Assembly: GCF_008831285.2 (NCBI RefSeq)
Contig: NC_045143.1
Span: forward strand, 1,833,503 to 1,897,502
Direction of reading: 5' to 3'
DNA from: Nymphaea colorata
Taxonomy: Eukaryota; Streptophyta; Magnoliopsida; Nymphaeales; Nymphaeaceae
DNA length: 64,000 nucleotides
The notes under the pieces are model-generated. The model was not told where the DNA came from and searched no databases. It saw only the letters and a list, made by a program, of their open reading frames with translations. The translations under genes were made by a program, and so were the position numbers. Shown here piece after piece: positions 7,149 to 44,069 of this stretch (positions are counted from its first letter, which is position 1; each line of letters begins with the position of its first letter).

Positions 7149-7221
7149 GCGCCTGTAGCTCAGTGGATAGAGCGTCTGTTTCCTAAGCAGAAAGTCGTAG
7201 GTTCGACCCCTACCTGGCGCG
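7149..7221 (+). tRNA. trnR-CCT: tRNA-Arg (anticodon CCT), copy 1
   Basis: The 73-base sequence folds as a standard cloverleaf. The acceptor arm GCGCCTG pairs with CTGGCGC with one T-T mismatch at pair 6-67. The D arm is GCTC/GAGC and the anticodon stem is TCTGT/GCAGA around loop TTCCTAA, which gives anticodon CCT decoding AGG. The T arm is GTAGG/CCTAC with loop TTCGACC. There is no intron and no encoded CCA, as expected of a nuclear gene. The internal A box (TAGCTCAGTGG) and B box (GGTTCGACC) are intact. The first T run downstream is near 7245. Confidence 0.96.
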
Positions 7222-7511: not shown

Positions 7512-7584
7512 GCGCCTGTAGCTCAGTGGATAGAGCGTCTGTTTCCTAAGCAGAAAGTCGTAGGTTCGACCCCTACCTGGCGCG
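7512..7584 (+). tRNA. trnR-CCT: tRNA-Arg (anticodon CCT), copy 2
   Basis: This copy is identical across all 73 bases to the one at 7149, 363 bases downstream in the same orientation. The flanking sequences differ, so only the mature tRNA is conserved. A CAA motif directly upstream is typical of plant tRNA start sites, and a TTTT run near 7605 is a likely polymerase III terminator. Both copies keep complete internal promoter boxes, so both are probably functional. Confidence 0.96.
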
Positions 7585-8454
7585 ATATTTCTCCTCCGTT
7601 CAACCATTTTACGCTTTTCCAACTTCTAAATTTCAAAGCCTTTAATAGTTCTTTATCTATTCTAAGCAAAAAAAGGAAAAAAAAAATCTTTTTTTTTCTG
7701 CAAATTGGGCTGCTATTTTCTTTCCTAATGCTCACCATTCGTTGACATTTACAACTACCAAGTGACTACACCTACTAAGTGACTTCACGCTTTGAGATTT
7801 AGTTATTTTTATCGGGCTGAAAGGAATCAAATCCATCACTAGTTCTAGTTCCACCTGATTCTGATTCTCTGAGACGAAGGTTAGGTTGCTGGCGATAAAG
7901 AAAAGGTATAAACAAGGGGATGCTGGAGAACCTTCACTGAGAATCAGGCGAGTTAGTGATGACATTAAGTTCAAAGCCAAGAACCAGCCACTTGCTCTCC
8001 TTTTCGTGTAGCGGCACATTGTATTCCTGAATTATAAGAGATTGTCGTTTTCCTTTTGGTTGGTACTTGGTAGCTTGAAGGTAGCAATAAATTTTTTAAC
8101 CAAAAGTGCGGATGGCTAGAGGTGATTCCTGAGTTAACTTGTTCAAGCTGGTGCGTGTTACGAGTAGAACAGGACTCGAATGAGATATGCAGAAGCAGAA
8201 CCCCCATTCGAGCTTGAACAGCTCGATCATGGTTCTTTAAAGCTCCTAAAAAGATAGGAATCTTCCGCCATTTTCACCGTATTTGTGAAGCATTTACTGC
8301 CATTCTTCCATGACCCACCTACTTTTCATCTACCGGCTACCACTTGTCATGGAAGACCCACCTGCCATTGCTTCGACTTATTGTGGAGGCAGAAACTGCA
8401 ATTGCAGACGGAGGCTATTAAATCTCCACCGCCCTTAGAGAGCTTTCAGTTGTC
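7585..8454. other. Upstream region of the carboxylesterase gene
   Basis: Non-coding sequence between the second tRNA gene and the carboxylesterase leader. No transposon or gene was recognised. A TATA-like CTATTAAAT near 8414-8422 lies about 95 bases before the start codon and could set the transcription start. Confidence 0.4.
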
Positions 8455-8505
8455 ACCACCATCATCACCATAGCCACCATCATCACCATAGCCACCACCA
8501 TCAAC
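8455..8505 (+). repeat. Short tandem repeat in the carboxylesterase leader
   Basis: The 18-base unit CCACCATCATCACCATAG occurs nearly perfectly twice, followed by a third degenerate partial copy, just before the start codon. It lies in the probable 5' untranslated region and lacks upstream ATG codons. Confidence 0.8.
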
Positions 8506-8511
8506 GAAACT

Positions 8512-9435
8512 ATGTCTATAGTGGCAGAAATCCCGGGCTTCATACAGATCTTTTCCGACGGCACCGTCACCCGGTTCTCCCCGGAGATAGCTCAACCATC
8601 ACCGGTTGTCTCCAGAGGCTACAAATCCAAAGACATCGTCATCAATCCACTGAAACCCATCTCCGCCAGGATCTTTCTCCCACAAACGGCCGATTCCGCG
8701 CCCCTCCCCGTCGTCCTCTACTTCCACGGCGGCGGCTTCTGCTTCGGCTCCACCACCTGGCTCGGCTACCACTACTTCCTCGGCACCCTCTGCACCAAAT
8801 CCCAGTGCATTGTGCTCTCCGTGGAGTACCGGCTGGCACCGGAGCACAGGATTCCGGCGGCGTACGAGGACTGTCACGAGGCGGTCACGTGGCTGAGCTC
8901 CAAAGGAAGCGCCGGCGACGAATGGCTGTCGCAGGCGGATCTCCGGCGAGTGTTCTTAATGGGGGACAGCGCCGGCGCGAACATTGTGCACCACGTATGC
9001 CTGCGTGTTCTGTCTTCCAAAGCAGAGAAGGTGAAGATCGGGGGACTTTCCCTGATCCATCCTTACTTTGGGAGCGAGGAAAGGCTGGAGAAGGAGAGCA
9101 CAGAGGCCACGAAAGTCAGCGACGCGCTTTGGCAGCTGAGTTTGCCGGTGGGATCGAACAGAGATCACTTCGCCTGCAACTTCGAGACGGCTGAGGATGG
9201 GAAAGAAGTAGACTGGAGCAAGTTTCCTGCTACTCTGGTGCATGTAGCAGGGGAGGATCTGTTGAGCCAGAGAGGGGTGATGTATGAGGGGTTCTTGAAG
9301 AGGAAGGCGGTGAAGGAGGTGGAGCTGGTGCTGCAAGAGGGCCAGCCCCATGTTTACTTCTTATTCAGCCCAGAAGATGCCGCCACCACAAGCCTGCATG
9401 AGAAATTGTATCAGTTCATACATCGCCTTGACTGA
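8512..9435 (+). CDS. Plant carboxylesterase (CXE / GID1-like alpha/beta hydrolase)
   Basis: This intact intronless gene encodes 307 residues, close to the usual length of plant CXE hydrolases that cleave small esters. The oxyanion-hole motif is HGGGFCFGS (residues 72-80). The nucleophile serine is Ser153 in GDSAGANIVHH (151-161). The acid is probably Asp249 in HVAGEDLL, and the base His280 in EGQPHVYF. VEYRLAPEHRIPAAYED (104-120) is also characteristic of the family. Because the catalytic His is present, this is a likely active enzyme and not a gibberellin receptor, where that residue is lost. It has no signal peptide, so it is probably cytosolic. The substrate cannot be told from sequence. 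A GC-rich 5' half gives several open shadow frames. Its last 42 codons and the following 660 bases recur five times farther right in the window. AATAAAT near 9476 is a candidate polyadenylation signal. Confidence 0.95.
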   Translation: MSIVAEIPGFIQIFSDGTVTRFSPEIAQPSPVVSRGYKSKDIVINPLKPISARIFLPQTADSAPLPVVLYFHGGGFCFGSTTWLGYHYFLGTLCTKSQCIVLSVEYRLAPEHRIPAAYEDCHEAVTWLSSKGSAGDEWLSQADLRRVFLMGDSAGANIVHHVCLRVLSSKAEKVKIGGLSLIHPYFGSEERLEKESTEATKVSDALWQLSLPVGSNRDHFACNFETAEDGKEVDWSKFPATLVHVAGEDLLSQRGVMYEGFLKRKAVKEVELVLQEGQPHVYFLFSPEDAATTSLHEKLYQFIHRLD

Positions 9436-10095
9436 TTGGCGTCTGTTCCACCTAGTTTTCAATTTCAGAAGCAATAATAAATCAAATCTCTGTTTCAGTG
9501 ATTACAGACAAAGATGAACCATTATAGGTGTTTTCTATCGAAAAGAATGCTTGCTTTGGTGGTTGTAAGATTTATCATACTCTGGAAGTTGTATAATCTT
9601 ATCTAAGCAGCTAAACAAGTGAACAGAGAAGCTGCGTCTAGTTAGTGGACATTGAAGATTGAGTCCTTAATGTGCAAAAATCTAGAACTTTTGGACTTTC
9701 ATAGGACAAAAACTGATGCACTTACATTGCTTTTGTTCCTAGTTGTTTTCTCTTGATAGACGCTATACTCTTTGAGAAGGAACTCCGACCAGTTTTTGCT
9801 CCTTTGTTGCGACCAGAAATTCCTAAACTCTTTGTCGGAAAAAGTATGCAGTTTCTCACGGTCTTACCTTCTATTTTCCACTGAATCTCTTCCTTCAACG
9901 GCGACCGACATAGATTCCGTGGCGTCTCCACTGGAAATCTTCAAAATTAATGGGGAAAAGCTGCCAATTCTGCTCGAACGTAAATGGAAAATTTCCAATC
10001 CCCTTGGCCTCCTTTAGTTGCCGCTTGTGTCTTACAGGCATGCCAAAATCCTAATCCTTGACATGGTAATCTTCAATACGCGGATTTCTTTATAT
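9311..10095 (+). repeat. Source segment of the repeated CXE tail
   Basis: From codon 267 of the carboxylesterase through its 3' flank to about 10095, the sequence is shared with segments at 34659, 44378 and 54055, and in shorter form at 20187/21059 and 22230. The copies begin at the same base (TGAAGG), right after an AG that resembles a splice acceptor. The functional gene is the only locus where the rest of the enzyme precedes this segment. Confidence 0.85.
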
Positions 10096-11750: not shown

Positions 11751-12024
11751 CCACTTCCTCCACTTTATGGGATCTGGGGCCTTTCCTTGCCGTCACCCAT
11801 AGATTGAACCAAATTATCGTAACAGATAAAGTATAGGAAGGGGCGTGGCTTTGGTAAGAGAGGGAGAGGTCTCCATCTTCTTCTTCTTCTTCTTCTTGTA
11901 CAAAGAAAAGGGCGACCGCATCCTAAGCTCTGGATGTGATGACGAGGGGGGAAGGGGTTGAGGGGGCCATAAAATTTGAGGTCGTGGCATCAACTTGGGA
12001 TCACTCGGTCTTTAATCAAATCTC
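11751..12024 (+). repeat. Unpaired copy of the 21.3-22.2 kb palindrome arm
   Basis: This stretch contains GATCTGGGG, CTTTCCTTGCCGT, CATAGATTGAACCAAATTAT, GGTAAGAG, a CTT repeat near 11876-11896 and TGGGATCACTCGGTC. It matches both arms of the palindrome at 21283-22229. Here only one arm is present, ending at CTCGCAAGTG. Confidence 0.8.
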
Positions 12025-12066
12025 ACTCGCAAGTGAAAAATGTTTTGTTTTATATTCAAATTTCTG

Positions 12067-12573: not shown

Positions 12574-12713
12574 TAATGTTCAAGGTGCATTCCAACGCAT
12601 AGCATAAAAGTGTTCAAAACTCTCCTCCTTCCAAAATGTGCCTCGCAAACATTGAGTGGAAACAGATTAGATATAATCTGTCAGTGGATCAAAACTTCAA
12701 ACTTTATTGTAGT

Positions 12714-14410
12714 GGAGATTTCTTTTCCTTTCTGTTGAGGAAGCGCCGTGACTCTGCATTCTCGCCTGAAAGTTAATGAAACGATCATGCAAATACTGTA
12801 TTATGATAATCAATGACGAAAACTGAGATGTGGGTGTCCAAAAACAATTAGTCAGATCCTCTCCAGAAAGGGGAAGAAAGAAGAATCACCTTCATTTGGT
12901 AGCTCGCCTTAAAGTGCAACCCCATCATCTCTAGTGGGCTTCTACCTGCTACCAAGAAGATGTGGACGCCATTTTTGATCTCTCCTCCGATGCCTTCTTT
13001 TGTCTATTTTTTTTATGTTTAATTTCTTATTTTTAATGTTTTTCTCCTCTCCTTCCACTCGGTTTCCTCTGTACACGTCTTTCATTAATTACTATCACAT
13101 TCACGTATTTTAATAAGCGCTGTAAGAAGCTAAAAGCAAAGTCTCAACAAGCTAGAAGCGAGAAGTTCTGCCTCCACCATCGGCACCATCGGTTGTAGCG
13201 TTAACGAGAAACAGAAAGACAGAATCACACCGGCGAACTGGCAAAAAAGAAACAGCGAAGAATGGAACACAAAAACATCCGACCTATCGCCAACGACAGC
13301 AATTGACGACGTGCCTCCAACCCAACTCCTCCAATTCCGATCTGATTCGATCACAGATGGAGAAAGAGATAGAAAGGCAACCCGGTGTGGAGAACGAGAA
13401 ACAAGGAGTGACAGACAAGAAAATGGAGAGATGATGGAAGGGGGAGATTGGGAATTGGATTTTGGTGTGTCTTTTTGGTTTCCCTCTCAAACCCTAAACT
13501 TCTTCCTTCCCTCTCGCTGATTTCAAATCGACTGCCACGTCCCAAAAGATGCAGAGATGCAAAGAGAAATCCGCATCTCTGCATTTTTGGGACGTGGCAG
13601 TCGATTCGAAATCCGCAAGAGGGAAGGAGGAGGTTTAGGGTTTGAGAGGGACACCAAAAAGACCCCCAAAATTCAATTCCTCATAGTGAACCCTAACCCG
13701 AGTCCCCCTTCCATCATCTCTCCATTCTCTTCTCTGTCACCCGTTTCTATCTCTTTCTCCATCTGTGATCGAATCAGATCGGAATTGGAGGAGTTGGGTT
13801 GGAGGCACGTCGTCAATTGCTGCCGTTCGCCATAGGATCGCCAAAGGTTGGATGCTTTTGTTTTCCATTCTTCGCTGTTTCTTTTTTGCCAGTTCGCCGG
13901 TGTGATTCTGTTTTTTTGTTTCTCGTTAACGCTGTGGTGCCGATGGTGGAGGCAGAACTTGCCGCTTCTAGCTTATTGAGACTTTGCTTTTAGCTTCTTA
14001 CAGCGCTTATTAAAATACGTGAATGTGATAGCAATAAATGAAAGACGTGTACAGAGGAAACCGAGTGGAAGAAGAGGAGGAAAATATTAAAAATAAAGCA
14101 AATTAAACATTAAAAAATAGACAAAAGAAGGCATCGGAGGAGAGATAAAAAATGGCGTCCACATATTCTTGGTAGCAGGTAGAAGCCCACTATAGATGAT
14201 GGGGTTGCACTTTAAGGCGAGCTACCAAATGAAGGTGATTCTTCTTTCTTCCCCTTTCTGGAGAGGATCTGACTAATTGTTTTTGGAGACCCACATCTCA
14301 GTTTTCGTCATTGAAAATCATAATACAGTATTTGCATGATCGTTTCATTAACTTTCAGGCGAGCATGCAGAGTCACGGCGCTTCCTCAACAGAAAGAAAA
14401 AGAAATCTCC
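12714..14410. mobile_element. 1.7-kb near-perfect palindrome (foldback element)
   Basis: Arms of about 845 bases mirror each other from GGAGATTTCTTTTCC at the left end to its complement ending at 14410. The centre is GCAGAGATGC (13551-13560), a 12-base loop and GCATCTCTGC (13573-13582). The arms are highly similar with scattered substitutions and small indels. Each arm carries gene-leader-like sequence: an AAACCCTAA telo-box near the centre, pyrimidine tracts, and a GAATCAGATCGGAATTGG segment. Open frames here read the two arms and are not genes. A transcript could fold into a long hairpin. No target duplication was found. Confidence 0.85.
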
Positions 14411-14597
14411 AAATGCAGAAAATTCGGCTTTGCCGAATGAAAATGAAAAAGAAGAGTAGAAAAACAATGAAAAAAAAAAGCCCAAAACTTTTGGACACTG
14501 AGAAGAGGAGACCGCAATTACCGTCGCCATCTTCGTCGACAGAGTCGAAAGCCTTCTGGAACTCATCAATCTGTTCTTTGGTAAAGAAGCCCGCCAT
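14373..14597 (-). pseudogene. Orphan first exon of a calmodulin-like gene
   Basis: On the minus strand an ATG at 14597 opens MAGFFTKEQIDEFQKAF, followed by DSVDEDGDG, the start of a calmodulin/EF-hand protein with the first calcium loop beginning. After 25 codons plus one base (14522) a GTAATT donor splits the Gly codon, the same place where plant calmodulin genes carry their conserved intron. The upstream minus-strand sequence is CT-rich like a plant leader. No downstream exons were found at lower coordinates. About 110 bases into the intron the large palindrome begins. The gene is therefore truncated, or its remaining exons were separated by the palindrome. Confidence 0.65.
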
Positions 14598-15264
14598 TGA
14601 TGAGCCGCTTCCTTTGCCAGAAGAAAAAGAAAAGAAGGGAAGAGAAGAGCAAAGGAGGAGGAAGAAGGAAATGAAGGAAAGCGGGAAGAAAGAAGGGAAG
14701 AGGCTCTGAGGGAGAGAGGTCGATCTCAGCGTACTCTGTCGATCTCAGCGTCGTGCCTTTATTTGGTTGTTCGGGACGGACGGGCGTCCTAGCCATGCTG
14801 ATTATCGTTAATTAATCAAAGAAAGCTCCGGTTTAGCTTGTAGTTACGAGATTGCCTTTGTTTGATATGGAGTAACTACTGAAAGGACAACGTCTGAAGT
14901 TTTACAAAGCTGGCTGGAAGCAGATAGATCCACAGTTATAATTTTGTAATAAAATTCAATTAATTTTAAATACTGTAAATAGATCGGAGAGTGGGTTTCT
15001 TTTTGGAAGACAACAATAGTCGAAAGAATGAAACTAAAAGTTGTTTCATGTTTGCTGTTTTCTCTTCATTCCCTTTTGTTCAGCAGTTTCTTTGGGTTTT
15101 TAGTTTTTAGCGCAATCTTAACTTAGTTGTGAGTTGGGACTCGTCTTGTGTCAGTAGTTTCTTTGCTAATGATAAAGAACACCCTTTTTTGCATCTGCTT
15201 TCTGAGAGTCCTTATGAAGAAGGTGACAGTCACCACCTCCCGACCTCTGATCATGCTAGCGTTG
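14598..15264. other. Leader/promoter-like sequence of the calmodulin-like exon and spacer
   Basis: Next to the calmodulin-like exon lies purine-rich sequence (CT-rich on the minus strand) and a direct repeat GTCGATCTCAGCGT near 14719-14752. The plus-strand frame 15129-15368 starts at a GTG and runs into the following repeat; it was not recognised and is treated as chance. Confidence 0.4.
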
Positions 15265-19020: not shown

Positions 19021-19685
19021 TGAAAAAGATGGCGTTGCTGGGTATGAGAAGTGATCATGTTAAGATAAGTACAACCACATTGAACATCAGACACAAGCAC
19101 CAACACCAGAAAATTATAGTTAAGATCGCAAGTAAATGTTGTTAAGATGAGTTCTTGTCATTTTTCTTTCTTATTTGTTCATGTTGTCGGGGGTAGCAGA
19201 ACAAAAACCTTAGTTAGCCAAGGGTTCTCATGACCTTCGCTTTACCTCAAAAAAAAAAAAAATTAAGTTTACATGTAAATTTTTAAAAAATTCATTTGTT
19301 TTATATAACAATTTAAAAATTTACAAACTTTAATTCATCATGAAATTTTTTTGACTCTGCTGCCACTTATTAATCATATATAACAAGCTCCGATAACTTG
19401 CGTACGTTGTTACAAGTGCTTAGAAAAAAAATGTTATTTGTAGTCATTTTATTTTATTTATTTTCATTTTTTATTTTTATAATACTAAAAACTTGTCTTT
19501 CCTTGTGAGAAGTGCGTTTGTCACCGCTTATAAGCTGCTTTGGATGCACCTGTAGTCTTACATCAAAGCAGTTCTATATTCTATATACTTGATCCGTGTG
19601 TACTCTTCTTGTAACTCTATCTTGATGTCAACTCTGAGAGCCTAGAGTCCTCTGTCGGAGTTCCGACGGGCAGCAACCCGGTGTC

Positions 19686-19912
19686 TCAATGTCTCCGTCT
19701 AAGATTGCCTGCAATTCCGTCGTTGGACGCAAGGCTCGCCGACTTATGTGCGGAAGGAGACTTGAGGGAGTTGACAAAAGCGGACCCAGACATCCTCAAC
19801 TGTGCGGCCGCCCTCCTACTGCATGCTGCTGCACATAGCTGCTGAAGCTGGGCAGCCAGAAATCGTCCGCTACCTGCTGCAAATGAAACCTGAGCTTGCG
19901 GAAAGGACTTGA
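19686..19912 (+). pseudogene. Ankyrin-repeat gene fragment, frameshifted
   Basis: The reading LPAIPSLDARLADLCAEG, then DLRELTKADPDILN, corresponds to the N-terminus of the ankyrin frame at 27730. A small deletion after DILN shifts the frame within the LLHIAAEAGQ ankyrin motif. A further stop follows in the GLAEK region (ACTTGA, about 19908). The sequence then jumps to the 3' region shared by the membrane-domain family (from about 19935). It is a dead, internally deleted member of the ankyrin family. Confidence 0.7.
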
Positions 19913-20186
19913 GGGGATTTGTGGTACCTTCCGAGTTCATGTACCCTGCTCTGTTTCACCACCTGTGCTCGTTCCTCTCCTTCTGACTTGTTCTGTGCCG
20001 TCCCTCTGCCTTTACAGCCTTCGCAAACCGTATTCTGTGGTTCTTACTGCGTCACACATATACATGTTATGGAAGGGTTTGTCAATTCATAATTCCTGTT
20101 ACGGGCAAGTTATGTTGGATCAATATTATGAGACCTGATGTTGTTTTAGTTGTGATGGAATCCAGAAAATGATCAATTCATCTCAG

Positions 20187-20289
20187 TGAAGGAGGTGGAG
20201 CTGGTGCCGGAAGTGGAAGAGGCCCAGCCCCATGCTTGCTTCTTGTTCAGCCCAGAAGGTGCCGCCGCCACATGGCTGCATGCATGCCT
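20187..20289 (+). pseudogene. CXE tail copy T1, first part
   Basis: About 100 bases match the carboxylesterase from its codon 267, again beginning exactly after CATCTCAG. It encodes the equivalent of KEVELV and FLFSPEGAAA with substitutions. Homology stops near 20289, where a HOOKLESS1-like fragment begins, and resumes at 21059. Confidence 0.75.
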
Positions 20290-20300
20290 CTAGTGATTAG

Positions 20301-21058
20301 GACTCCAATGGGGTGACTCTCCTGGAGAGTGTGTGTCAGGTTGGGGCAAGTTGGAAAACCTCCGTGGTGGCAGATCTCATGGCTCGAATCCGCCATTCTC
20401 CTTCCTATCTCATGTTGGTACTGCTTCGCTTCAGAATTCTCTCTCTCTACCGCTTGCCCTGTAATTCTTGTGGCAACTTGACACTCCTTTCAATTTTCTT
20501 TTCATTTTTGTTCGCTCTCTCGCGCTCTTGATCATTTCACTGAAGATTGAACTGCGACTCTGCTAAAACATTACCACCATCTGTCGTTCTTTCTTCACTG
20601 AAGCAGTTTCCTGCTGTGAGTTGTTAGGTAGCCGAGTATGGAGATGACAGTGAAATCGTGGGTGTTATCAGGGGATGCATAAAAACCGTTGCCCGTGGCC
20701 CAGAGTCTCAAAGCAAGCAGCAGAACTCTGATATGCCTCTCTACGTCAAGGTTGCTTGCATTCTTGGCCTCAGAGTCTCACCGTCTCATAGGTAAAAGAA
20801 AAAGCTTTTCTCCTCTTTATCCCCAACCTCTTCTGTTCTTCACCGTATTCTTTTCTCATTACAGCCACCTTTAAGCAAACGTGCTGTGAGATTCTGTCTT
20901 CTTTCGTCATTATCTAAGCTGGCTTTTCCTGTTTCTGAGTTCACGCTTTTCATAGGTTTCAATTGGTGTCGGGGAAGAAACAGTGACATCATTAGTTTTC
21001 TCCTCTTCTTTTTTCAACTTAAGTTAACTGTCTGTTAATCTGCTGCTGCATTTACAGT
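20301..21058 (+). pseudogene. HLS1-like: Captured HOOKLESS1-like N-acetyltransferase fragment with introns
   Basis: Two consecutive exon pieces of a plant HLS1-type GNAT acetyltransferase are recognisable. Piece 1 (20301-20417) encodes LLESVCQVG, then VADLMARIRHSPSYLML, and ends at a GTACTG donor between codons. Piece 2 (20628-20791), after a TTGTTAG acceptor, encodes VAEYGDDSEIVGVIRGCIK and KVACILGLRVSPSHR, and ends at a GTAAAAG donor. Spliced together they read through without a stop and give the family's RHSPxxLMLVAE and VIRGCIKTV blocks and the start of the acetyl-CoA-binding region (LGLRVSPSHR). The next intron runs to a TTTACAG near 21056, where the third exon should begin; carboxylesterase 3'-flank sequence follows instead. 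HLS1 acts in apical hook growth, but this piece lacks both ends and cannot be functional. Confidence 0.85.
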
Positions 21059-21282
21059 TGTGTTGTAAGATTTTTCATGCTCTGGAAGTTGTAGAATCTT
21101 GTCTAAGCATCTAAACAAGTGAACGGAGAAGCAGGGTCTAGTTAGTGGACATTGAAGATTGAGTCCTTAATGTACAAAAATCTAGAACTTTTGGACTTTC
21201 ATTCCTAGTTGTTCCCTCTTTATAGACGCTTTTCTCTTTGAGAAGAAATCCCGATCAGTTTTAGCTCCTTTGTTGCGAAAAC
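21059..21282 (+). repeat. CXE tail copy T1, second part
   Basis: The sequence from TGTTGTAAGATTTTTCATG to the GAGAAG...CTTTGTTGCG phrase matches 9566-9820 downstream of the carboxylesterase. It continues copy T1 after the HOOKLESS1-like interruption, but about 120 bases of tail coding and 3' sequence between the two parts are missing. Confidence 0.75.
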
Positions 21283-22229
21283 TTCCTTCACTGAGATGCG
21301 ATCTGGGGGCTTTCCTTGCCGTAGCCCATAGATTGAACCAAATTATCATAACAGATAAGTATAGGAAGGGGCATGGCTTTGGTAAGAGCGGGAGGCTTTG
21401 GTAAGAGCGGGAGAGGTCTCCATCTTCTTCTACAAAGAAAAGAAAAGGGCGACAGCGTCCTAAGATCTGAATATGATGACGAGGGCGGAAGGGGTTGACG
21501 GCGCCATAAAATTTGAGGTCGTGGCATCAACATGGGATCACTCGGTCTTTAATCACATCTCACTCGCAAGTGCGTCTTTTTTCTACCGTACCACCATCAC
21601 GTGGTCATCTTGAACTGCCATCTCCATCCTTGGTCTTTCCCTCCTTCCTTCGTGCTTCTTCCTTCTTGCTTCCATTATTAGGAGTAAGAATACTAACTAA
21701 CCAGTGTTCTGCTACCCTTCCTCTTCGTCACTGTCAACATCCATCCTTAAAATCTTTTTCCCACTTGGCTTTCATTGCGGCCGTTGAAATTGCGGTTGGA
21801 ATGAGATGGAAGCAAAGTGGGAAAAAAGATTTTAAGAATGGATGTTGACGGCGACGGAGAGAAAGGGTAGCATAACACTGGTTAGTTAGTATTCTTACTC
21901 TTAATAATGGAAGCAAGAAGGAAGGAGGGAAAGATCAAGGACGGAGATGGCAGTTCAAGATGACCACGTGATGGTGGTACGGGAGAAAAAAGACGCACTT
22001 GCGAGTGAGATTTGATTAAAGACCGAGTGATCCCATGTTGATGCCACGACCTCAAATTTTACCAACCCCTTCCGCCCCCGTCATCATATTCAGATCTTAG
22101 GATGCGGTCGAAGAAGAAGATGGAGACCTCTCCCTCTCTTACCAAAGCCATGCCCCTTCCTATACTTTATCTGTTATGATAATTTGGTTCAATGGTGACG
22201 GCAAGGAAAGCCCCCAGATCCCATCTCAG
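21283..22229. mobile_element. 0.95-kb palindrome (foldback element)
   Basis: The left arm begins CCTTCACTGAGATG and the right arm ends CATCTCAGTG; each holds GATCTGGGGGCTTTCC or its complement. Arms of about 430-480 bases pair around a loop near 21766-21816. Internal landmarks are CTCGGTCTTTAATCA, CACGTGGTCATCTTGAACTG and TAACTAACCAGTG. The outer ends include the same CATCTCAGTG that precedes every CXE tail, so the element lies between CXE tails T1 and T2. One arm also exists alone at 11751-12024. Frames inside are arm artefacts. Confidence 0.85.
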
Positions 22230-22408
22230 TGCAGAAGTGGAGCTGGTGCAGGAAGAGGCTCAGCACCATGCTTACTTCTTGTTCGGCCCAGAAGGTGCCG
22301 CCACCACAGGGCTGCATGAGCAATTGTATGAGTTCATACATCGCCTTGATTGATTGGCGGCTGTTCCATCTAGTTTTCAATTTCAGAAGCAATAATAAAT
22401 CAAATCTC
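22230..22408 (+). pseudogene. CXE tail copy T2
   Basis: This copy starts TGCAGAAGTGG after CATCTCAG and encodes the equivalent of EVELVQEEAQHHAYFLF. It retains the His corresponding to catalytic His280, then GAATTGTATGAGTTCAT-type sequence through a stop and the AATAATAAATCAAATCTC 3' sequence. Homology ends at 22408. Nothing of the catalytic core is present. Confidence 0.75.
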
Positions 22409-22587
22409 TCCTAACAAAGCCATGCCACCTTATACCTTTGTGCATTAGAGCAGTAGGCTCTCTGCTGGTTTTGGACGGTGAACGCAAGTTTGGAGCCGTC
22501 TAAGGATGCACAATACCTAATACAGTTTCAATTTATGGAAAAAGCAGGTTTTATGTGATTTTGTAAGACTTTAGTTCTCTCTTCATG

Positions 22588-27320: not shown

Positions 27321-28084
27321 TCATTATATTTTCGACCATCTTCTTGCTTTTTTCTTTGTACTTAAAACACAGTTTCTACCTTTTATTTTTTTAGTCTTTC
27401 TGTTAGTAAGTCATCCAAATACAGGAAAAACATTTTCTTTGCCTTTTTTTTTTCTACTCTCCCTTCATCCAAACAACAAAGAGATAGGAGCGTAGGTGTA
27501 TGTGCAAAACCAGGGCGGGGAAAGAAGTCGCCTCCAGAAAAAGGTTAAACGTCCCTCTAAAACTGTCATTCTCATAAGCCCGAAAGAAGCTCTCTAAGTA
27601 TCATCTTCTTCTAACTCTATCTCTATGACTCTGCTCAGAGCCTGCAGTCCTGATGGGCGTGGCGGAGTTCCGACGGGCGTTAACCTGACGACTCATTGTT
27701 TCCATCTAACATTGCCTGCAATTCCGCCGATGGACGCAAGGTTCGCCGACTTATATGTGAAAGGAGGCTTGAGCGAGTTGAAGCGGCGGGCAAATGCCGA
27801 CCCGGGCATCCTCAACCGTGTGTGGCCGCCCTCCTGCGGCACGCTGCTGCACATAGCTGCCGAAGCGGGGCAGCTAGAAATGATCCGCTACCTGCTGCAA
27901 ATGCAACCTGGGCTTGCAGAAAAGAATTTGACCTTTACATCTCGCAACGGCAGGACGGAGGTCATATTTGCCATTCTTGATAAGAAACCTAATGCAATAG
28001 AACAAATTACGAGTGCTCGTGAGAACACCATTCATTTAATGGCGACAAATGGTCAGTACGTGGCCTTTATGCTTACGTTCCTGG

Positions 28085-29951
28085 GGGCCCGTTTGATGGG
28101 CGGTTGAAATCCACTCTGAGCTGGGAGCTCGAACTTTTGAGCGGGTGAAAATTTCACCCGTTGGTTGTTTCGGGCGCTCGACCTCCCTCCTCAGCGCACG
28201 ACCTCCTTCGGCAGCTCACATCACACCTCTGCTCCTCCTCCCTCGACCCTTCTCACATCGCACCAGAGTGGTCGCACCGCCGTCGCCGCTGCCTCTCCCC
28301 TCCACCGCCGGTAAATTTTTTCTCTTTCTCCCTCTGATTCCCTCTCTTTCTCCCTTCTTCTGATGCCCTAAATGGAGGAGGAGGACCGATATTCTCCTTT
28401 CCCCATCGTGCAGCTTCTTCCTTTTCCCCTTTCCTTCTTACTCACCAACATCATCTCATTCTTATTCTTCCGCATTTCCTGCTGTTTTGCTTTGGGGATC
28501 ATGCACTTTGTATGAGTGGGCATTGGGCAACCGCTCATTCGATTCCCTCGCCTTTTCTTCCTTCTTCTCGATCGTCCGCTCCCCAGGATTCCATTCGAGT
28601 CAAGCAGAGAGAGAAAAAGTGTTGTGCGAGTTGACATTGCCGACTTGCCGTTTGCCATCCGACATCCACTGTCGCTGCACGGTCGGTCCGCCACCACCAC
28701 CGCCATCGCTTCACAAAACGGTGCATGCCCTGTAGCTGCGAGCCACCACAGTCCACCATCGTTCGACATCCACGGTCTTTTTTGGTTAGAAAATGGTGAT
28801 CTAGGTCTTTTTAAGGACGGAATTTGCTGGTTGACTCTATTGTTTGGCTGTTTAGTGCATGAATTTTGTTCTTAGTTTATGGAGATCGATCAAAATCGTA
28901 AACTTTTTTTTGTGATTGCTTGTCGAATAGATCAACTTGGGTTCTGTTTATGGAGCTTCTTCATGGATGTAGTGATTTACTTCGTCTTCATTTTTTGCTT
29001 CATTTAGATTGCTGAGATGTGCAATTTAGTAGATGTATTGGTGTTTTGCATGAATTTTGTTCTTAGTTTATGGAGATCGATCAAAATCGTAAACTTTTTT
29101 TTGTGATTGCTTGTCGAATAGATCAACTTGGGTTCTGTTTATGGAGCTTCTTCATGGATGTAGTGATTTACTTCGTCTTCATTTTTTGCTTCATTTAGAT
29201 TGCTGAGATGTGCAATTTAGTAGATGTATTGGTGTTTTTTTTGGCTGGATTTTGTCTCCATTTTGATGGTTTTCTCGCTTGCTTAGTTACTGGAATTGAG
29301 AAGCTTGTTATTCTAGGCGAGTTGTGTTGTGCTCGTAGGTGATTGTGGGCAAGTGGTGCTCGTATGATAGGAAAGCTTGATTGGGTAATAAATTTGATAT
29401 ATGTTGTCATTCTTTTTTAGTTGTCTTTTTGGTGTAAATTAAACGTGCTCTCTTGATCTCTCTTAGCCTAATAAACGAGTCCATTTGTTTGAGATTTTCC
29501 TCCGCTGAGCTCGTTATATTTGCCAGTTTGTGAATTGTATGTTCAGTTAATTTTGATGGTCTAGGTTGAAGAATTACTGTTTCTGGACTTTGATTCATGA
29601 ATGAATATGTATTCTACATTAACGTTCAACAAAGGATCTTGATTCTCTGGAAATTGGTTTAGAATATGCTCCAAGTCTGAAACTGTGTAGGATGTTATGG
29701 TTTTAACTGTGTTTTGGAAGATCATCTTTCAATTTCTTTGCACGTCATATTTGGCGAGGAGAAGACACAAAAAAAACAACATTTACCAAGTTCAATTCTT
29801 CTTGTGCATCAAACAGGGTTAAATTTACCACGGTAAATTCTTCCTGTGCATCAAACACGACTTCAAATTGGAAGAGGGAGAAATTTCAAACTGTAAATTT
29901 TTCACGGTAAATTTACCGCGTTAAATTTTCACCCGCCCATCAAACGGGCCC
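28085..29951. mobile_element. TIR DNA transposon (PIF/Harbinger-like), non-autonomous
   Basis: The ends are perfect 19-base inverted repeats GGGCCCGTTTGATGGGCGG, flanked by TGG at 28082-28084 and 29952-29954, a 3-base target duplication. The terminal sequence and duplication length fit PIF/Harbinger-type elements, although their target is usually TWA. The 1.87-kb interior has no transposase. It contains GC-rich leader-like sequence, a short ATG frame MEEEDRYSPFPIVQ at 28372, and a 191-bp tandem duplication, which suggests captured host promoter/leader DNA. Confidence 0.8.
28856..29237. repeat. 191-bp tandem duplication inside the transposon
   Basis: The block beginning GCATGAATTTTGTTCTTAG at 28857 is repeated without visible change from 29048, giving two adjacent 191-base units. 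The near-identity indicates a recent event. The content resembles a plant 5' untranslated intron: T-rich, with GATCGATCAAAATCG. Confidence 0.9.
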
Positions 29952-32715: not shown

Positions 32716-32986
32716 ATATAGGAGGGCACTGGGCCAGGCCGCTAGCGGGTAGCTGGTACTGGCCAGGTATGGGCTCTAGTGCGGGCCTGAAAAACCCGGC
32801 CTAGGCCCGATGGGCTAGCCCGAATTGACTCGATAACTTAAAAAAATATTTTTTAATTATTAATAATATATATTTTATTATTTAAAATATATTTTATATT
32901 CAAAAAGTTTTTTATAATTTAAAAGATATTTTTTATATATAACCAGGGCAGGGCCCAAGTTTCAGGTATCGGGGTCGGGTCGAGGT
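32716..32986. mobile_element. hAT-like repeat, copy 2
   Basis: A block of about 270 bases. The left end has GGGCACTGGGCCAGGCCGC, the middle is AT-only sequence, and the right end is GGTATCGGGGTCGGGTCGAG. The same element lies at the equivalent place in the later copies (41973, 51650). Confidence 0.45.
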
Positions 32987-33036
32987 GCTGTGAATGCACT
33001 TATACTCTTGCATTCAACTCTAAAGGCAGGCTAATC

Positions 33037-33657
33037 TTGGAGAGGCACTCCGCTTTCTGTGCACAAATTTCACATATTCTTTTGTCCACTTTGACGTTGG
33101 GTCACCTGGAATTGATCGCACCTCAAGCGGCCTCCTCCGATCTTACATGGTCTGTTGTGGATTACACCTGGTTTTGCACGAGGAGGCAAGTGTTTTACGA
33201 AGGCACCTTTAGTCAGGTGATTTCAAACTCTGCCAACCGCCTCATTCGGCTGGCCACTCTTCTTTTCCCCTACACCACCTATTTGTCGATGGAAAGGGGG
33301 GGCAACCCTCTCGGGGCAGCCTTTTCTCTCACCGTCTACTTTTTGTTTTTGCTCTCCATAGCTTTCATCCTCTACGCTTAATCTCTACGAAATGAAGGTT
33401 TGGAGGTGAAAAAAGAAACAAGGCTTGTATGTAGTGATCTTTCTCTTCTGCGTCATCGGCCTCGCCTTCTTCGCGTGTCATTCTCCCTTGACTGGCCTAC
33501 TGCCTTCTCATGGCACCTTGGTTGCTCCTAATATCTTTCATTCTCGCGTTCTACTTCATCTGGAATCCTCTTATCGACCCTCGTCACTGCAGTGGCGGCT
33601 TATTAGGTACCCACTTCTCAATCCTTCGGCGGAGGGGGAGATAGGAATTTCCAAGTA
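33037..33657 (+). pseudogene. Membrane-domain (4-TM family) pseudogene M2
   Basis: A 114-codon frame includes EGTFSQVISNSANRLIRLA and FSLTVYFLFLLSIAFILYA, matching residues 47-111 of the intact frame at 62376. It stops (TAA) where that frame has His112 (AHSLRNEG). The remaining helices can be read in other frames up to about 33600, so both a nonsense change and frameshifts are present. Confidence 0.7.
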
Positions 33658-34658
33658 AGAGCGGCCGTGTCACGGGCTGACTTCTTCAGCCTGTGCGGCA
33701 CGGCAAGAACCTGATTGTCCTAAGCCTTCAAACCACCAAAAGGAGCACAAAGGTAGTTTTAGAAAACAAGTGCATAAAGAACGATTTGTGAATAAAGAAA
33801 TCTCGCAATGTATTTAACTTGAAAAATTTGAACATCACGAAAAAGGTAAGCAAGGAAAATGATCTCAACTTTACTTACATAGGATGGCCGAAGCCGCTTA
33901 CATGATTCTAAAGCCGACTACCCAAAATTAAGAATTCCAATATATGACACTTAAACAAGTGGGAGAGTACCCCCTTACAAGCAAACAAACATAAGCAAAT
34001 GAAACAGTCGCAAAGGAAGTACAGTGTCAAACAAAACAAATGACTGTACACACTCTTAGACATAGGAGAACCAGTCGAAACATAACTTTTTATAATAAAA
34101 AAAAGCACTGAAATGTAATTTTTCAAATTTTTTTTTGACAAACTTTTTTTAAAATTAGCCAAATTTGAGGGCCAGGCCATGAGCCCTTACAGTCTTTGGC
34201 TCTGCACCTGCTTATGTCTAATTAATCCACCAATAATGTAAATGCCCATTTGAGACTTGCGTTTTTCGATTTTAATTTGAAATTTGAGTGGTGAAATATA
34301 TGGCTCAATCTCCATTTTTCTCGTGCAGGTGGTTTGAGTTTCCGAGTATTGTTTTCAGGTGATTGCCCAGCCATGTTCATGTCCCCTGCTCTGTTTCACC
34401 ACCTGCGCTCGTTGCTCTCCTTCTGACTTGTTCTGTGCGGTCCGTCTGCCATTACAGCCTTCGCAAAACTTATTATGTGGTTCTTACTGCGTCGTACTGT
34501 AATACGTATACATATACATAGTTATGTTCCCATCAATGGGAAGGCAGGGTTTGTCAATTCAAAATTCCTGTTACGGGCAAGTTATGTTGCATCAATATTA
34601 TGAGACCTGATGTTGTTTTAGTTGTGATGGAATCTACAAAATGATCGATTCATCTCAG

Positions 34659-37365: not shown

Positions 37366-38548
37366 TATAACTCCATTTTTATCGATGTGTTACCTTCATG
37401 AAGACCGGTAAGTCACATAGTTTTGCCAGCATTTTACATTCATTGATGGCTCATGTTTTTCTTCTCCCTAAAAGATATAAAAAATACATGCAACACACTT
37501 GGATGCTGTTAAAAATACATAAAAAAAATAATGAAATCATGAGATTTAACGTGGTTTTCCACCACGAAAGGCGACCATTGGCCATAAGAATTATAATGTT
37601 TGATTTGATATTTATACTTTCTGTGTGCTATAATCTATGGATCTCTCTTTGGTTTTTTTTACAACTCTGGGTCGACGAATCTCTTTGTTGATAGCGATAA
37701 AGTTATTATTTTTGTTGGTTTTTTTATTTTTATAGATATCATTTCCTTATATAGGTTGGAACATTATCGTCAGTGACTCAACAATGATAACATTTCTTTT
37801 GTTGAGCAAAAATGTTAGTTGCTTTGCCTAACATGAATATTGTTAGATTTGATATTTATACCTGGTCAAAAAACTTTTTTTTTTGCAAGTTCAAATGGAT
37901 GACCACCCTCCTTGATAATAATGTTATTATTATTTTTATTACATCTTTGCTTTTATAGTTGTTGTTCTCTTATAACTCAACTTTTTCTTTAATAATAATA
38001 ACATTTTTTTTATTGAAAAGATTTTTTTTTATAACGTTAAATCATTGCATAACACCTTCCATTTTCACCTCCAAGACATACTTGAAAAATCTAAGAGATC
38101 ATATTTCTGCCAATATTTTTTCTTTTATTTTTGCAATGAGTCAACGACCCCCCTTGTTGATAATAATGTTATTATTATTTATCTCCATCTTCACCTCCAC
38201 AATATAATTCCTTATAGGTAGCAAAATTATATTTTTATCAATGATGACCTTCAATTTGTTGTGAAATTTTTATTTAATAACTTTAAAGTTTAAACACTTG
38301 CATAATGCTCTTTATTTTATCGTGCACCATATGGGGATCTTCCTGCTCTAATAACATATTTAAAAAAGAAAATAAAAATCTAACGCCGTTTTTAAATATG
38401 GAAAACCAACATCAACCTTAAGGAGTGTAAGAATTAATATTTCTACGTTCTCTTTTTATATGAATATTTAGATATTTCTCCTGTCTTTTTTTCAATGCAA
38501 AGTTAATGATCAAACTTATTGATAATGTCAACATTACTTTTAAAATAT
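37366..38548 (-). mobile_element. LTR-derived repeat R, copy 3
   Basis: A 1.2-kb relative of 15265-16450: GATTTAACGTGG and GGCGACCATTGGCC phrase, three internal GATAATAATGTTATTA units, and a degenerate primer-binding-like site (CTGCTCTAATAACAT) near 38342. It is cut off at a GC-rich segment at about 38549. Copies are at 47042-48225 and 56719-57902. Confidence 0.6.
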
Positions 38549-38740
38549 ATGTTATTCACGGGGTTCCGAACACGGCCGCTGTATCTGCCGTTCTCATTAC
38601 TCGACGTTGATCAAACCTGCCGGGCGGTGTATACCAACAGGGTCTTCCGACAGTCAGAGCCGCCTTGAGCAGCCACCCTCTCGTCCGCGCCTTCTTGGCC
38701 TTTAACGTGGTTGAGTTGCTCAGCCAAAAATTTTTCACGA
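38549..38740. other. GC-rich island of unknown origin
   Basis: About 180 bases are clearly GC-richer than the surrounding AT-rich repeat. On the minus strand a 60-codon frame reads KARTRGWLLKAALTVGR and GRFDQRRVMRTADTAAVFG. It is not recognised. The frame is kept in all three tandem copies with a few substitutions, but that follows from their recent origin and is not evidence of function. Confidence 0.35.
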
Positions 38741-39300
38741 AAATGATAAATTAAAATTTTTAAATTTTGATACTAGTCAAAATATCATTTTTCAAAATTT
38801 TTATATATGACAAGCAAACTTTTTTAAAATTACATGTAATTTAAAAAAAAAAAATTGAGGTGGGATCAAAGCCCCTCTGCCCCTGGTTGCAAAGGTTCCT
38901 TTTCGTTATCCAAACACAGTCCAGCTCGGTGGAGCCGGGACCAGCTCATCTGTCGGTGGATTGTTCTCAAGACATTCTACTGCCTGCATGTTGATTGATT
39001 ACCTGACTACTAGTGGGATGATCCTATTGTTTCGGAAGTAAAAAAAAAAACTCCATTAATGGTTGCTCTCTGTAGTTGTTGGGGGTTCATCTCCACGACT
39101 ACCGCGAATTACTTTCTTTCCAAGTAGGGGATCAGCAGGAAGCTCAACACGACTAGAGGATAGTGTGGATGACAAAGAAGGCTCCCTCAAGTCGTGGCAC
39201 ATGGCAGATGCTGGAACGAGGGGTTCAAACATGGAGAAGTTGCTTTACCCGGCTCGAGTTTATTATGTAATTTTTTTTATCTTTTGTTTCTATTGGAAAA

Positions 39301-39500
39301 GGATTGGCTTGTTTCATTCTAAAAGGACAAGAACTTAATTATAGTCCTAGGCAAATTTCATAGAGATAATATTATGGACTGTTTTTATTAGCCATGACTA
39401 GGATTGGCTTGTTTCATTCTAAAAGGACAAGAACTGAATTATAGTCTTGGGCAAATTTCATAGAGATAATATTATGAACTGTTTTTATTAGCCATGGCTA
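39301..39500. repeat. 100-bp tandem duplication
   Basis: The block starting GGATTGGCTTGTTTCATTC occurs at 39301 and again at 39401 with a few substitutions. Both are present in the later tandem copies. Confidence 0.9.
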
Positions 39501-40466
39501 GACAACATAGTTATGCCTTCAAACTAAGATATGCGTTCTATTGTAAATGAATTTTTGGGTCTGTCTTAGAAAGGCTTTTTTTTTTCAAGCATTTTTTGAC
39601 AAGTAATGAACCTTTTTATTACCTTTGGCTTTGGCTTAAGTTAGACAGGATGTTAATATATTGGATTTGGATTACACATCGAGCCAAACTACTGTTTTGA
39701 AAAAGGTCAGACATTAAAAAAAAAGTTAATGTGCGATTTTTTAATCAGATGAAATTTGAATTTAAGAAATGACATCCAATCAAATTTGGATTTTGATATG
39801 TCTAAATATTGGAATGGAGTCAAATCAACTTTATTTTTAAACAAATATCATCTATCTAATACTCTTACATTTTGAAAATACTCAAATCATGTTCAAAATT
39901 TAAATTTATATCCAGATATGATTGTAAAAATCAGATTCCACAAACTAGGGTTGTGAAATATGATTTTTGATTGAGAGATATGACTTTTCTCAGTTCAAAT
40001 CCTAATATATAAATATCTGAAAAAACGAATACGATTGAGAGCATATGTGAATCGAATCCTATCCATATATAAATATCCGTGAAAAAACAAATACAATGAA
40101 ATGCGTAGTATCCGAATGAAATCAGATTTATTAACATCCCCACTAAAAGCATTGCAACAGAAATGCATCCACTGGCTAATTGAAAGTCCAGTCTCTTATA
40201 AATTATTCTGTGTGTGGAACTTATCTTATAAAGCTTTGCAACATCAAGTTTGCAAGGCAAGCAGGGGCATAGGAAGGATTTCTTTCCAAGCGACTCGGGC
40301 AGCGCAGAAGAGTTCAGCGACTCCATAAATAATATTTCCGAAAGTTTTTTATGAAGGTTAACATTGTAAGTTTTCTAGGTTTACAAAGGGCAAACCAAAG
40401 TTTTCTGAAATTTTTATATGTGAATTTTAATTGACAAACTGTTAAAGGGGAGGGAAGGGGACATGG

Positions 40467-40585
40467 CTCAGGGTGGGCATCGGGCCGGCCAAACCCGGTA
40501 AGAATCGGTTCCGGCAGGCTCAATGTACAAAACTCGGGTTCTGCTCGGTTATAATAAGAAAACTATTTTTAAAAATATAAAATGG
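40467..40585. mobile_element. hAT-like end, truncated
   Basis: CAGGGTGGGCATCGGGCCGG resembles the terminal sequence of plant hAT elements (CAGGGGTGGGC type). It is cut off after about 120 bases by the start of the older duplicated block. Copy at 50144. Confidence 0.4.
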
Positions 40586-41689
40586 AGGATGAAGGATCCC
40601 TACGAAATGAAGGATTGAAGAAGAAGAAATAGGTCTTGTATGTAGTGGTCTCCCTTTTGTGTCATTGGCATTGCCTTTTTCCCACACGTCTAATGGCGTT
40701 CTCCCTCGACCAGCCGCCTTCTAATGGCGTTCTCCCTCACGTTCTACTTTTTCCACCTCTAAATCCTCTCATCGGCCTGGGTCGCTGCAGTGTCAACCGT
40801 CATGCTTAAAGCTAAAGGGTTGTGGTAGGTAATCCAACAGCAGCGTGATCTACCCAGGTAATTCTCTCCATGATGCTCTACCTCATAGAAAAGATGTTGT
40901 GTGCATACGTAGATTGATATGAAACAACTGATTTGTGGTCTCCATAAGAAGCCAAACAATTGCAAAATGCCCACAATTTTAGAAAGATAAAGAAGAAAGA
41001 GAGAAGAGAGAGAGAGAAAGAAAGAAAGGGATGGCACAAGAAAGATTGAAAAAAAGTGTGTGTGTGTGTGTTTTGTATACTTTTTAGAGATATTGTAAAT
41101 CCAATATCTCCAAAAATGAATAGATTGGGAGGAAATGGAAAGATCATTGTATGAATGAAGGGTAATAACAAGAGCAGCAATATATGGCTCGGGGAGTTCT
41201 TTTGTTTCATGTTGCTGAGTGGGAGTGCTTTGTTTTACAGGTTTTGTACGGGGTAAAATAATGATTTTCGTGAGGAAAAGTGGATTGATCGCTCAGTGAT
41301 GTTTTGTAGTTACTTAGGCACCAAAGCAGCAGTAGACCTTAAGGTGGACCTTTGGCTTCCTTCTTAGGTGGTATAAGGAGTATTCCTCCTAATCGTCATC
41401 CAAAAATAATCTCTTATACCTTGCTGCCAAACTTAGTGCCTGAATTCTTAAGAAAGAAAAAGCAACCACACAAACAAAATGAAAAACACTCAAAGATAGA
41501 AACGGAAGAACATTCGGTGCCCTTCAAGCTGCCAAATATGGTGGATCAGCGGTTTTCGCCTCCACTATCTTTCTCGCCTTTGGGCTTAGCTTCCGTTTGC
41601 ACGTAATTTCTCACGAGAACATTAGTGCCATAAAATATACTCTCTTCTCTTTTCTCATCTATTTCCGTGCAACTCGAGCATGCATGCCA

Positions 41690-41790
41690 AACACAATGAC
41701 GGTAGTTCAGAAGCGCCTGTTGACGGTAGGCTGCTATGAGTACTCTGTCTGCGGAAGACACTTAATTATTAACCTACCTCCACAGTGTGG
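41690..41790 (+). pseudogene. Decayed ZAT-like remnant
   Basis: Only a linker (GTAGTTCAGAAGCGCC), YEYSVCGRHLI and the start of the NLPP tail remain of the zinc-finger family. It is shorter than the equivalent copy at 32320. Identical remnant at 51367. Confidence 0.55.
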
Positions 41791-41972
41791 GAAAAAATCA
41801 GCAGAGGTGTAGAACATGTTTTATTACTTAGAAAAAACTTGTTTTTTATAGTTATTTTATTTTTGTATTTACTTTTTTATTTTTATCTTACTAAAAACTT
41901 GTTTTTTCCTTATGAGAAGTGTGTCTATTATTTCGTGTACACTATGTACTGGCGCTTATAACCAGCTTTGGA

Positions 41973-42248
41973 TATGGGTGGGCGTTGGGTCGGGTCGCTA
42001 GCGGGTAGCTGGTACTGGCCAGGTATGGGCTCTAGTGCGGGCCTGAAAAACCCGGCCCAGACCCGATGGGCTAGCCCGAATTGACCTGATAACTTAAAAA
42101 ATATATTTTTTAATTATTCATCATATATATTTTATAATTAAAAATATATTTTATATTCAAAAAAATATTTTATATTTAAAAAATAATTTTTGTTATAACC
42201 GGGGCAGGACCCAAGTTTCAGGTATCGGGGTCGGGTCGAGGTGCTGTG
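41973..42248. mobile_element. hAT-like repeat, copy 3
   Basis: Matches 32716-32986: GGGTGGGCGTTGGGTCGGG at the left, an AT-rich middle, and GGTATCGGGGTCGGGTCGAG at the right. The copy at 51650-51925 belongs to tandem unit U2. Confidence 0.45.
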
Positions 42249-42403
42249 AATGCACTTATACTCTTACATTCAAATCTAAAGGCAGGGTAATCTTGGAGAG
42301 GCACTCCGCATTCTGTGCACAAATTTCACAATTTCTTTCGCCCATTTTGGCATTGGGTGGCCTCTAACATTACTAACAAGAATCCTGGTTCGTAAGCTAC
42401 ACT

Positions 42404-42912
42404 TTGATGGCACCTCAAGCGGCCTCCTCCGATCTTACATGGCCTGTTGTGGATTACACCTGGTTTTGCACGAGGAGGCAAGTGTTTTACGAAGGCACCT
42501 TCAGCCGGGTGATTTCAAGCGCTGCCAACCGCCTCATTCGGCTGGCCACTCTTCTTTTCGCCTACACCACTATTTGTCGATGGAAATGGGGGGCAACCCT
42601 GTTGGGGCAGCCCTTTCTCTCACTGTCTAATGCTTGTTTTTGCTCTCCATAGCTTTCATCCTCTACGCTTAATCCCTACGAAATGAAGGTTTGGAGGCGA
42701 AAAAAGAAACAGGGCTTGTTTGTAGTGATCTTTCTCCTCTACATGTCATTCTCCCTCGACTAGCCTATTGCCTTCTCATGGCACCTTGGTTGCTCCCAAT
42801 ATCTGTCATTCTCGCATTCTACTTCATCCAGAATCCTCTAATCGGCCCTCGTCACTGCAGTGGCGGCTTATTAGGAACCCACTTCTCAATCCTTCGGCGG
42901 AGGGGGAGATAG
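42404..42912 (+). pseudogene. Membrane-domain (4-TM family) pseudogene M3
   Basis: It carries EGTFSRVISSAANRLIRLA and then a frameshift in the segment after FAYTT; the later helices are in another frame (ILPRLAYCLLMAPWLLPIS at about 42747-42805). An in-frame TAA again replaces the His codon after ILYA. Copy at 52081-52589. Confidence 0.7.
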
Positions 42913-43223
42913 GAATTTCCAAGTAGGAGCGGCGGAATCATAACTTTTTATAATTAAAAAAAAAAGAGCACTGAAATGTAATTTTTCAAAAAAAAAATTG
43001 ACAAACCTTTTTTAAAATTAGCTAAATTTGAGGGCCAGGCCATGAGCCCTTACTGACCTTTGGCTCTGCACCTGCTTATGTCTAATTAATCCACCAATAA
43101 TGTAAATGCCCATTTGAGACTTGCGTGATTCGATTTTAATTTGAAATTTGAGTGGTTAAATATATGTCTCAATCTCCATTTTTCTGGTGCAGGTGATTTG
43201 AGTTTCCAAGTATAGTTTTCAGG

Positions 43224-44069
43224 TAACAGAAAAAGGATAGGGGATTAACTTGGAACACATTTTCTTTACCCACGGAAGGCCATCCGCCTTAAGATTGACA
43301 AAGTATGTTAATCTCTTATATAGGCATTACAGATGAGATAACTCCTTATTTTAAGGAGCTGTTACAAGATATTCGTTATCGATAAAACCGTTCCATGATT
43401 TTTGCTTTAACTGTTTCCATAATCCATCGTTTTGATTTTTGCCATGATCCTTTCCAAAGGATCCTTACCATGATGTTGGCATCCTTATCATATGTGTGTG
43501 TCGTTAACCATCATTCTTTTCATCTTCCTTTAAATTGGGCGGCGTTTCACAAAGTCCAAATTTGCCATGGAGATTTTGTGGAGGCAGATTATGCTCTGGC
43601 AGCAATTCAGAAATCTTAAGCTTGATTCTTGAAGATTTTGTTCAAATGATCGAGTGCTCGCTTTGGTGAAGAAGACAACGATCTCTTTGATCGTCTGCGT
43701 GCCATCTTTGGGCATTGATCTTCTTCTTCAAGCATCATTCTCTGATACTATGTTGAAAAACATAAAGCAATAACAGAAAAAGCTTAGGGGATTAATGTGG
43801 AGTATATTTTCTTTACCCACAGATGGCCATCCGCCTTAAGATTGACAAAGAATGCCAATCTCTTATATAGGCATTACAGATGAGATAACTCATTATTTTG
43901 AGGAGCTGTTACAAGATATTCATTATCAACAAAACCGTTCCTTGATTTTTGTTGTTACTATTTCCATAATCTATTGTCTTTATTTTTGCCATAATCCATT
44001 TCAAAGGATCCTTACCATGATGTTGGAATCAATATCATATGTGTGTGCCGTTAACCATCATTCTTTTCA
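43224..44069 (-). mobile_element. TRIM-like miniature LTR retrotransposon
   Basis: On the minus strand a 5' LTR (44069-43751, about 319 bases) begins TGAAAAGAATGATGG and ends TTTTTCAACA. It is followed directly by a primer-binding-like site TAGTATCAGAG, one mismatch from the initiator-Met tRNA site. The internal region is only about 228 bases and ends in a purine tract (AAAGGAAGA). The 3' LTR (43522-43224) follows and lacks its last 20 or so bases. The LTRs differ by many substitutions, so the insertion is old. There is no coding sequence. It is absent from the older copy at 34350 and present again at 52901-53746. Confidence 0.75.

Follow-up and report, generated by a model that had tools for sequence, protein, structure and literature searches.

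A HOOKLESS1-like gene fragment with retained introns inside a duplicated carboxylesterase 3′ end in Nymphaea colorata

Introduction

How does the 5′ part of a plant growth gene come to lie, introns included, within the 3′ end of an unrelated gene? The question is raised by a stretch of 64,000 nucleotides from Nymphaea colorata (NC_045143.1, positions 1,833,503 to 1,897,502), referred to below as the window, whose own numbering is used throughout. Sequence comparison confirms the interval from 20283 to about 21061 as the 5′ part of a HOOKLESS1-like (HLS1-like) gene lying inside a duplicated carboxylesterase (CXE) 3′ end (Table 1). In our reading the piece is probably a non-processed, DNA-copied pseudogene fragment that entered as filler during break repair, decayed afterwards and most likely has no function.

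Such debris is not rare in plants. One survey of plant pseudogenes finds the intron-bearing kind about tenfold commoner than the processed kind in four of its five plants, all but grapevine, and it also discusses copying as filler DNA (PMC7935947).

Table 1. Coordinates of the fragment and of the features around it in the window
Feature	Position	Strand	Basis
Intact CXE (alpha/beta hydrolase) reading frame	8422..9435	+	stop-to-stop frame; Pfam Abhydrolase_3 E 8.5e-54
Broken ankyrin-gene 5′ fragment	19604..19910	+	blastn to 27604-27928, 79.3%
X segment	19935..20185	+	matches 34375-34657 at 235/251 aligned bases, gaps excluded
CXE tail copy A, left part (CXE coding-sequence end)	20186..20282	+	aligns to CXE 9310-9400
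HLS1-like exon 1 remnant	20283..20417	+	tblastn E 1.7e-6; translations
HLS1-like intron 1, GT...AG	20418..20627	+	sequence; frame carried across
HLS1-like exon 2, open over 54 codons	20628..20791	+	tblastn E 3.6e-11
HLS1-like intron 2	20792..21057	+	donor AG/GTAAAA; acceptor at 21057 a candidate only; five YAG sites in the stretch
CXE tail copy A, right part (3′ flank)	21062..21280	+	21062-21278 aligns to CXE 9562-9812, 198/217 identical, gaps left out
Long palindrome abutting copy A, about 1 kb	21281..22238	.	opposite-strand self-match
CXE tail copy B, continuing the right palindrome arm	22222..22409	+	22234-22409: 159/176 aligned bases identical to CXE 9316-9491

Identity of the fragment

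The window was searched by tblastn with a provisional Arabidopsis HLS1 sequence, and the identity of the fragment rests on this provisional query. Exon 1 matched at 20301-20420 with 41.6 bits and exon 2 at 20598-20792 with 56.6 bits, both above all 100 shuffles of the query's first 113 residues (best, 31.6 bits; mean, 20.7). Similarity to HLS1 protein thus covers both exons, and the HLS1 match on which the original prediction of an HLS1-type acetyltransferase depended is present.

Support from family libraries appears weak. Neither exon taken singly matched Pfam, and the spliced 92 aa reached Acetyltransf_1 at E 0.097 with 13.4 bits, below the cut-off of 20.7. The GNAT domain is accordingly incomplete within the window: exon 3, where we take the RRxGIG acetyl-CoA motif to lie, was not found there by tblastn, the best match having E 0.59 and 27% identity. 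No other part of the window matched 20283-21061 when the window was compared with itself by blastn (E up to 1e-6).

Searches for relatives of the spliced fragment gave 48 pattern matches in bacterial and archaeal genome contigs and two in viral contigs, with 0 confirmed in either set, as expected for a plant gene. Two solved structures matched the fragment at E up to 1. One, the designed repeat protein 7ue2_A (E 6.5e-8), was judged a repeat artefact, its alignment unviewed, with 0 stretches passing on their own; the second had E 0.51. A literature text search for HOOKLESS1 with pseudogene returned papers that, by their titles and abstract openings, concern other subjects, and one combining HOOKLESS1, GNAT, acetyl-CoA and motif returned nothing.

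Gene structure and loss of coding capacity

The borders of intron 1 read TTG/GTACTG and TTGTTAG/GTAGCC, and exon 2 ends in CATAG/GTAAAA. For the wax gourd gene BhHLS1 the structure reported has three exons and two introns (PMC10570438); two exons and two introns are seen here, in a comparison that covers their counts. The piece looks as though it spans the gene from its start to about the end of intron 2.

Its reading frame is broken. A candidate start codon at 20284 opens a frame beginning MPLVIR, which breaks near 20301-20303 and, read from that ATG, meets a stop after 10 codons. Compared with the HLS1 query, exon 1 also lacks four codons in front of RIRHSP. The frameshift, the missing codons and the lack of exon 3 in the window are disabling lesions of the kind expected in a non-processed pseudogene, as is intron retention, seen in a GT...AG intron 1 between exons that share a frame and in the preserved intron-2 donor. 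Because introns are kept, the piece was copied from DNA and not from a processed transcript, which upholds the predicted capture at DNA level and rules out a processed retrocopy.

In its kept introns, its partial extent, its disabled frame and a donor that does not lie alongside it in the window, the fragment resembles the non-processed plant pseudogenes of the survey. It differs from those described there in being nested in the tail of another duplicated gene and is otherwise unremarkable (PMC7935947).

Nesting within a duplicated CXE tail

By alignment, the intact CXE reading frame is the relative whose 3′ end recurs in the tail copies. This 3′ end, from 9310 to about 10053-10093, reappears at 34658, 44377 and 54054 with 91.3-91.6% identity, and in each of these three repeat units it is preceded by the X segment. 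Our guess is that X derives from the 3′ flank of an ankyrin gene. Pfam does not support the guess, since neither 62355-62945 nor 32923-33378, two frames close to related copies, matched an ankyrin or PGG family. The stretch at 27604-27928, to which the broken ankyrin-gene fragment upstream of X aligns, does carry ankyrin repeats (Pfam Ank_3 E 4.6e-6).

The interval 19935-21280 is a damaged version of the same X-plus-CXE arrangement, interrupted by 779 foreign bases (20283-21061). The predicted nesting in a CXE tail follows from the alignment of the two flanks to separate parts of the intact gene; the left part is identical to it at 76 of 85 aligned bases. Between the two aligned parts, CXE 9401-9561 (about 161 bp) is missing from copy A, and the HLS1-like piece stands in its place.

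Four CXE tails in the window span both junction points, namely that of the intact gene (9310-10053) and those starting at 34658, 44377 and 54054, and all four are uninterrupted; of these, the 44377 and 54054 copies go back to a recent duplication, lie in stretches identical over 500-base blocks and do not count as independent. Copy B likewise runs uninterrupted through the left junction point. Since the sister tails are uninterrupted, the HLS1 insertion is the derived state.

Ends of the insert and mode of capture

The ends of the insert (20283/21061) carry no terminal repeats above chance. They scored 5.0 for inverted and 6.0 for direct repeats, both below the 95% level of 8.0 that 500 shuffles gave for the inverted comparison. 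The longest word common to both flanks is GCTGCAT (7 nt), after which the expected CXE bases do not follow, and no fitting target-site duplication was found at the insert ends. Target bases were thus lost and replaced without such a duplication, as in filler DNA. Four more joins between unrelated sequences lie within 3 kb: ankyrin/X, X/CXE, CXE/palindrome and palindrome/CXE copy B.

These features lead us to favour break repair with copied filler DNA over transposon capture, because target bases were lost, the insert ends show neither above-chance repeats nor a fitting duplication, and several other joins are close by. In the scenario that we propose, a stretch of an HLS1-like gene running from about the start codon through intron 2 would have been copied into the duplicated CXE 3′ end in place of about 161 bp of tail sequence. 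The most likely route would be double-strand-break repair with filler DNA, through synthesis-dependent strand annealing or template switching, in the setting of a much-rearranged cluster of ankyrin and CXE pieces, and the HLS1 fragment would have decayed afterwards.

A partial parallel is the maize p2/p1 chimeric gene, which holds filler DNA. There, as here, foreign copied DNA replaces deleted target bases in a tandem cluster; the maize fillers quoted are 1-131 bp long and are said to derive from nearby, whereas the HLS1-like piece is about 779 bp long and has no donor in the window, which speaks against filler repair (PMC2686159). Gene copying of the filler type is also described for wheat (PMC3445842).

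The main competitor, which we consider unlikely, is that an element of the Pack-MULE, CACTA or Helitron type carried the HLS1-like piece and the CXE tail here together. In plants, elements of these types are well known to capture gene fragments (PMC13317346), several long inverted repeats occur in the window, and an 18-nt inverted repeat, complementary at 17 of 18 positions, exactly bounds copy A with the HLS1-like piece (20179-20196 / 21281-21298). Its left half, however, is partly CXE coding sequence (GTGAAGGAGGT) that is present in the intact gene as well, and the same half also begins the tails of the three repeat units, which extend far beyond the end of copy A. At the insert itself, the terminal inverted repeats and target-site duplication of a Pack-MULE or other TIR element are lacking. 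A scan for Helitron ends, made as CTRRT on the + strand in 20900-21300, found two such words, both in CXE-derived sequence.

The soybean CACTA element Tgm-Express1 offers a similar picture in that unrelated gene fragments with exon/intron structure are united, and differs in that the locus studied here has no convincing element ends or target-site duplication and its HLS1/CXE chimera is described at the level of DNA (PMC1947982). A clean transposon insertion is ruled out by the loss of target bases together with the lack of a fitting duplication. The clean insertion of an element, followed by a deletion, could also mimic the replacement of CXE bases.

The 3′ junction and a possible chimeric RNA

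The 3′ junction had been placed just after the acceptor TTTACAG, and the join does lie within about 5 nt of the AG at 21057. CXE homology begins at about 21062; its leftward extension into the HLS1 intron is at the level of chance, being reached by 455 of 2000 shuffles, which places the right junction no more closely than about 21057-21062. As 29 of the 270 positions in 20792-21061 lie 0-5 nt after a YAG, a join this close to one would be expected about once in nine by coincidence.

Could the arrangement be a young chimeric gene, in which HLS1 exon 2 is spliced to CXE 3′ sequence and the RNA yields a short HLS1-derived peptide or acts as a regulatory RNA? A chimeric RNA of this kind is speculative. 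It is possible inasmuch as captured gene fragments are spliced as extra exons in soybean Tgm-Express1 (PMC1947982). The intact borders of intron 1 and the open exon 2 are in its favour, and a hypothetical splice from 20791 to 21058 would give a longest ATG frame of 79 aa, the last 12 residues of it new.

The acceptor at 21057 has competitors, however. Compared by pyrimidine fraction alone, the candidate acceptors at 20864 (0.75) and 20955 (0.70) have more pyrimidine-rich upstream sequence than 21057 (0.65), and a splice from 20791 to 20865 would give a frame of 70 aa from the same ATG. Both hypothetical products would be without the exon-3 part of the GNAT domain, and the frame opened by the candidate start codon at 20284 ends after 10 codons. 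These data therefore give no support for regarding a spliced chimeric RNA as likely or meaningful, and we consider a young chimeric gene very improbable. An HLS1/CXE fusion protein was also considered and rejected: a stop at 20291-20293 closes the CXE frame, the frame from the ATG ends as described above, and the frame that matches HLS1 is the third.

Still less probable is an assembly error that misplaced the third exon of a complete HLS1 gene. Assemblers can fail in surroundings as rich in repeats as these, where 9,677-bp units agree completely over many blocks of 500 bases. Yet no displaced third exon was found within the window, exon 1 carries damage already, and the two flanks belong to one CXE tail, stand in the right order and have diverged to a similar degree from the intact gene (76/85 and 198/217).

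The palindrome and other neighbours

The palindrome beside copy A is an odder neighbour than the HLS1 scrap. Outside gaps its arms share 385 of 406 aligned bases (80.7% when gaps are counted), and as RNA it is predicted to fold into a very stable hairpin of -758 kcal/mol, whereas 20 shuffles average -286. With gaps left out of both comparisons, the arms are closer to each other than the right part of copy A is to the intact CXE; the palindrome may be younger, or gene conversion may have preserved the likeness of its arms.

The start of the CXE tail is present at the ends of both arms, in opposite directions. The outer end of the right arm continues into copy B, and short inverted pieces of the tail start are borne by the left-arm end and by a solo half at 11753-12035. 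Whether it follows X or the palindrome arm, the tail comes after a GATC..CAT word and opens, with GTGAAGG or a variant of it, at roughly the same base, as seen at 34651, at 22222 and, inverted, at 21281-21298 and 11753. It is as if one earlier join had been reused.

Several further features were recorded in the window. Tandem units of 9,677 bp occupy 36535-57900, where comparison at that offset gives 499 or 500 identical bases in each 500-base block, for block starts from 38000 to 47500; either very recent amplification or assembly duplication may account for them. On the minus strand, 14376-14744, which we take to resemble calmodulin exon 1, is a possible calmodulin-like exon-1 fragment (MAGFFTKEQIDEFQKAFDSVDEDGDG), with an EF-hand match of E 0.067, below the cut-off; it adjoins one arm of a 332-nt inverted repeat (12713-13044 / 14080-14411). 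Two tRNA genes lie at 7149-7221 and 7512-7584 (Rfam, 66.4 bits each), their starts 363 bp apart, and a tandem duplication of about 200 bp with 98.5% identity is found at 28844-29047 / 29038-29238.

The most far-reaching possibility is a transcribed regulatory chimera, in which transcription would read through from the ankyrin remnant over the HLS1-like piece into the 1-kb palindrome and produce a very long hairpin RNA. If small RNAs then spread into the HLS1-like piece, they could silence the genuine HLS1 gene of the plant in trans. We consider this combination, read-through and silencing together, extremely improbable.

Implications

The HLS1-like fragment, in our reading a piece of filler DNA left by break repair, most likely does nothing, and any transcription of it would be incidental. 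It is plant gene debris of an ordinary sort, one more intron-bearing pseudogene. The chimera that it forms with the CXE tail would matter more only if its expression were seen in RNA or small-RNA data. The value of the locus lies in its resolution: uninterrupted sister CXE tails define the bases lost and gained to within a few bases, which makes it a clear, small case of the DNA-level mixing of gene pieces in plant genomes.
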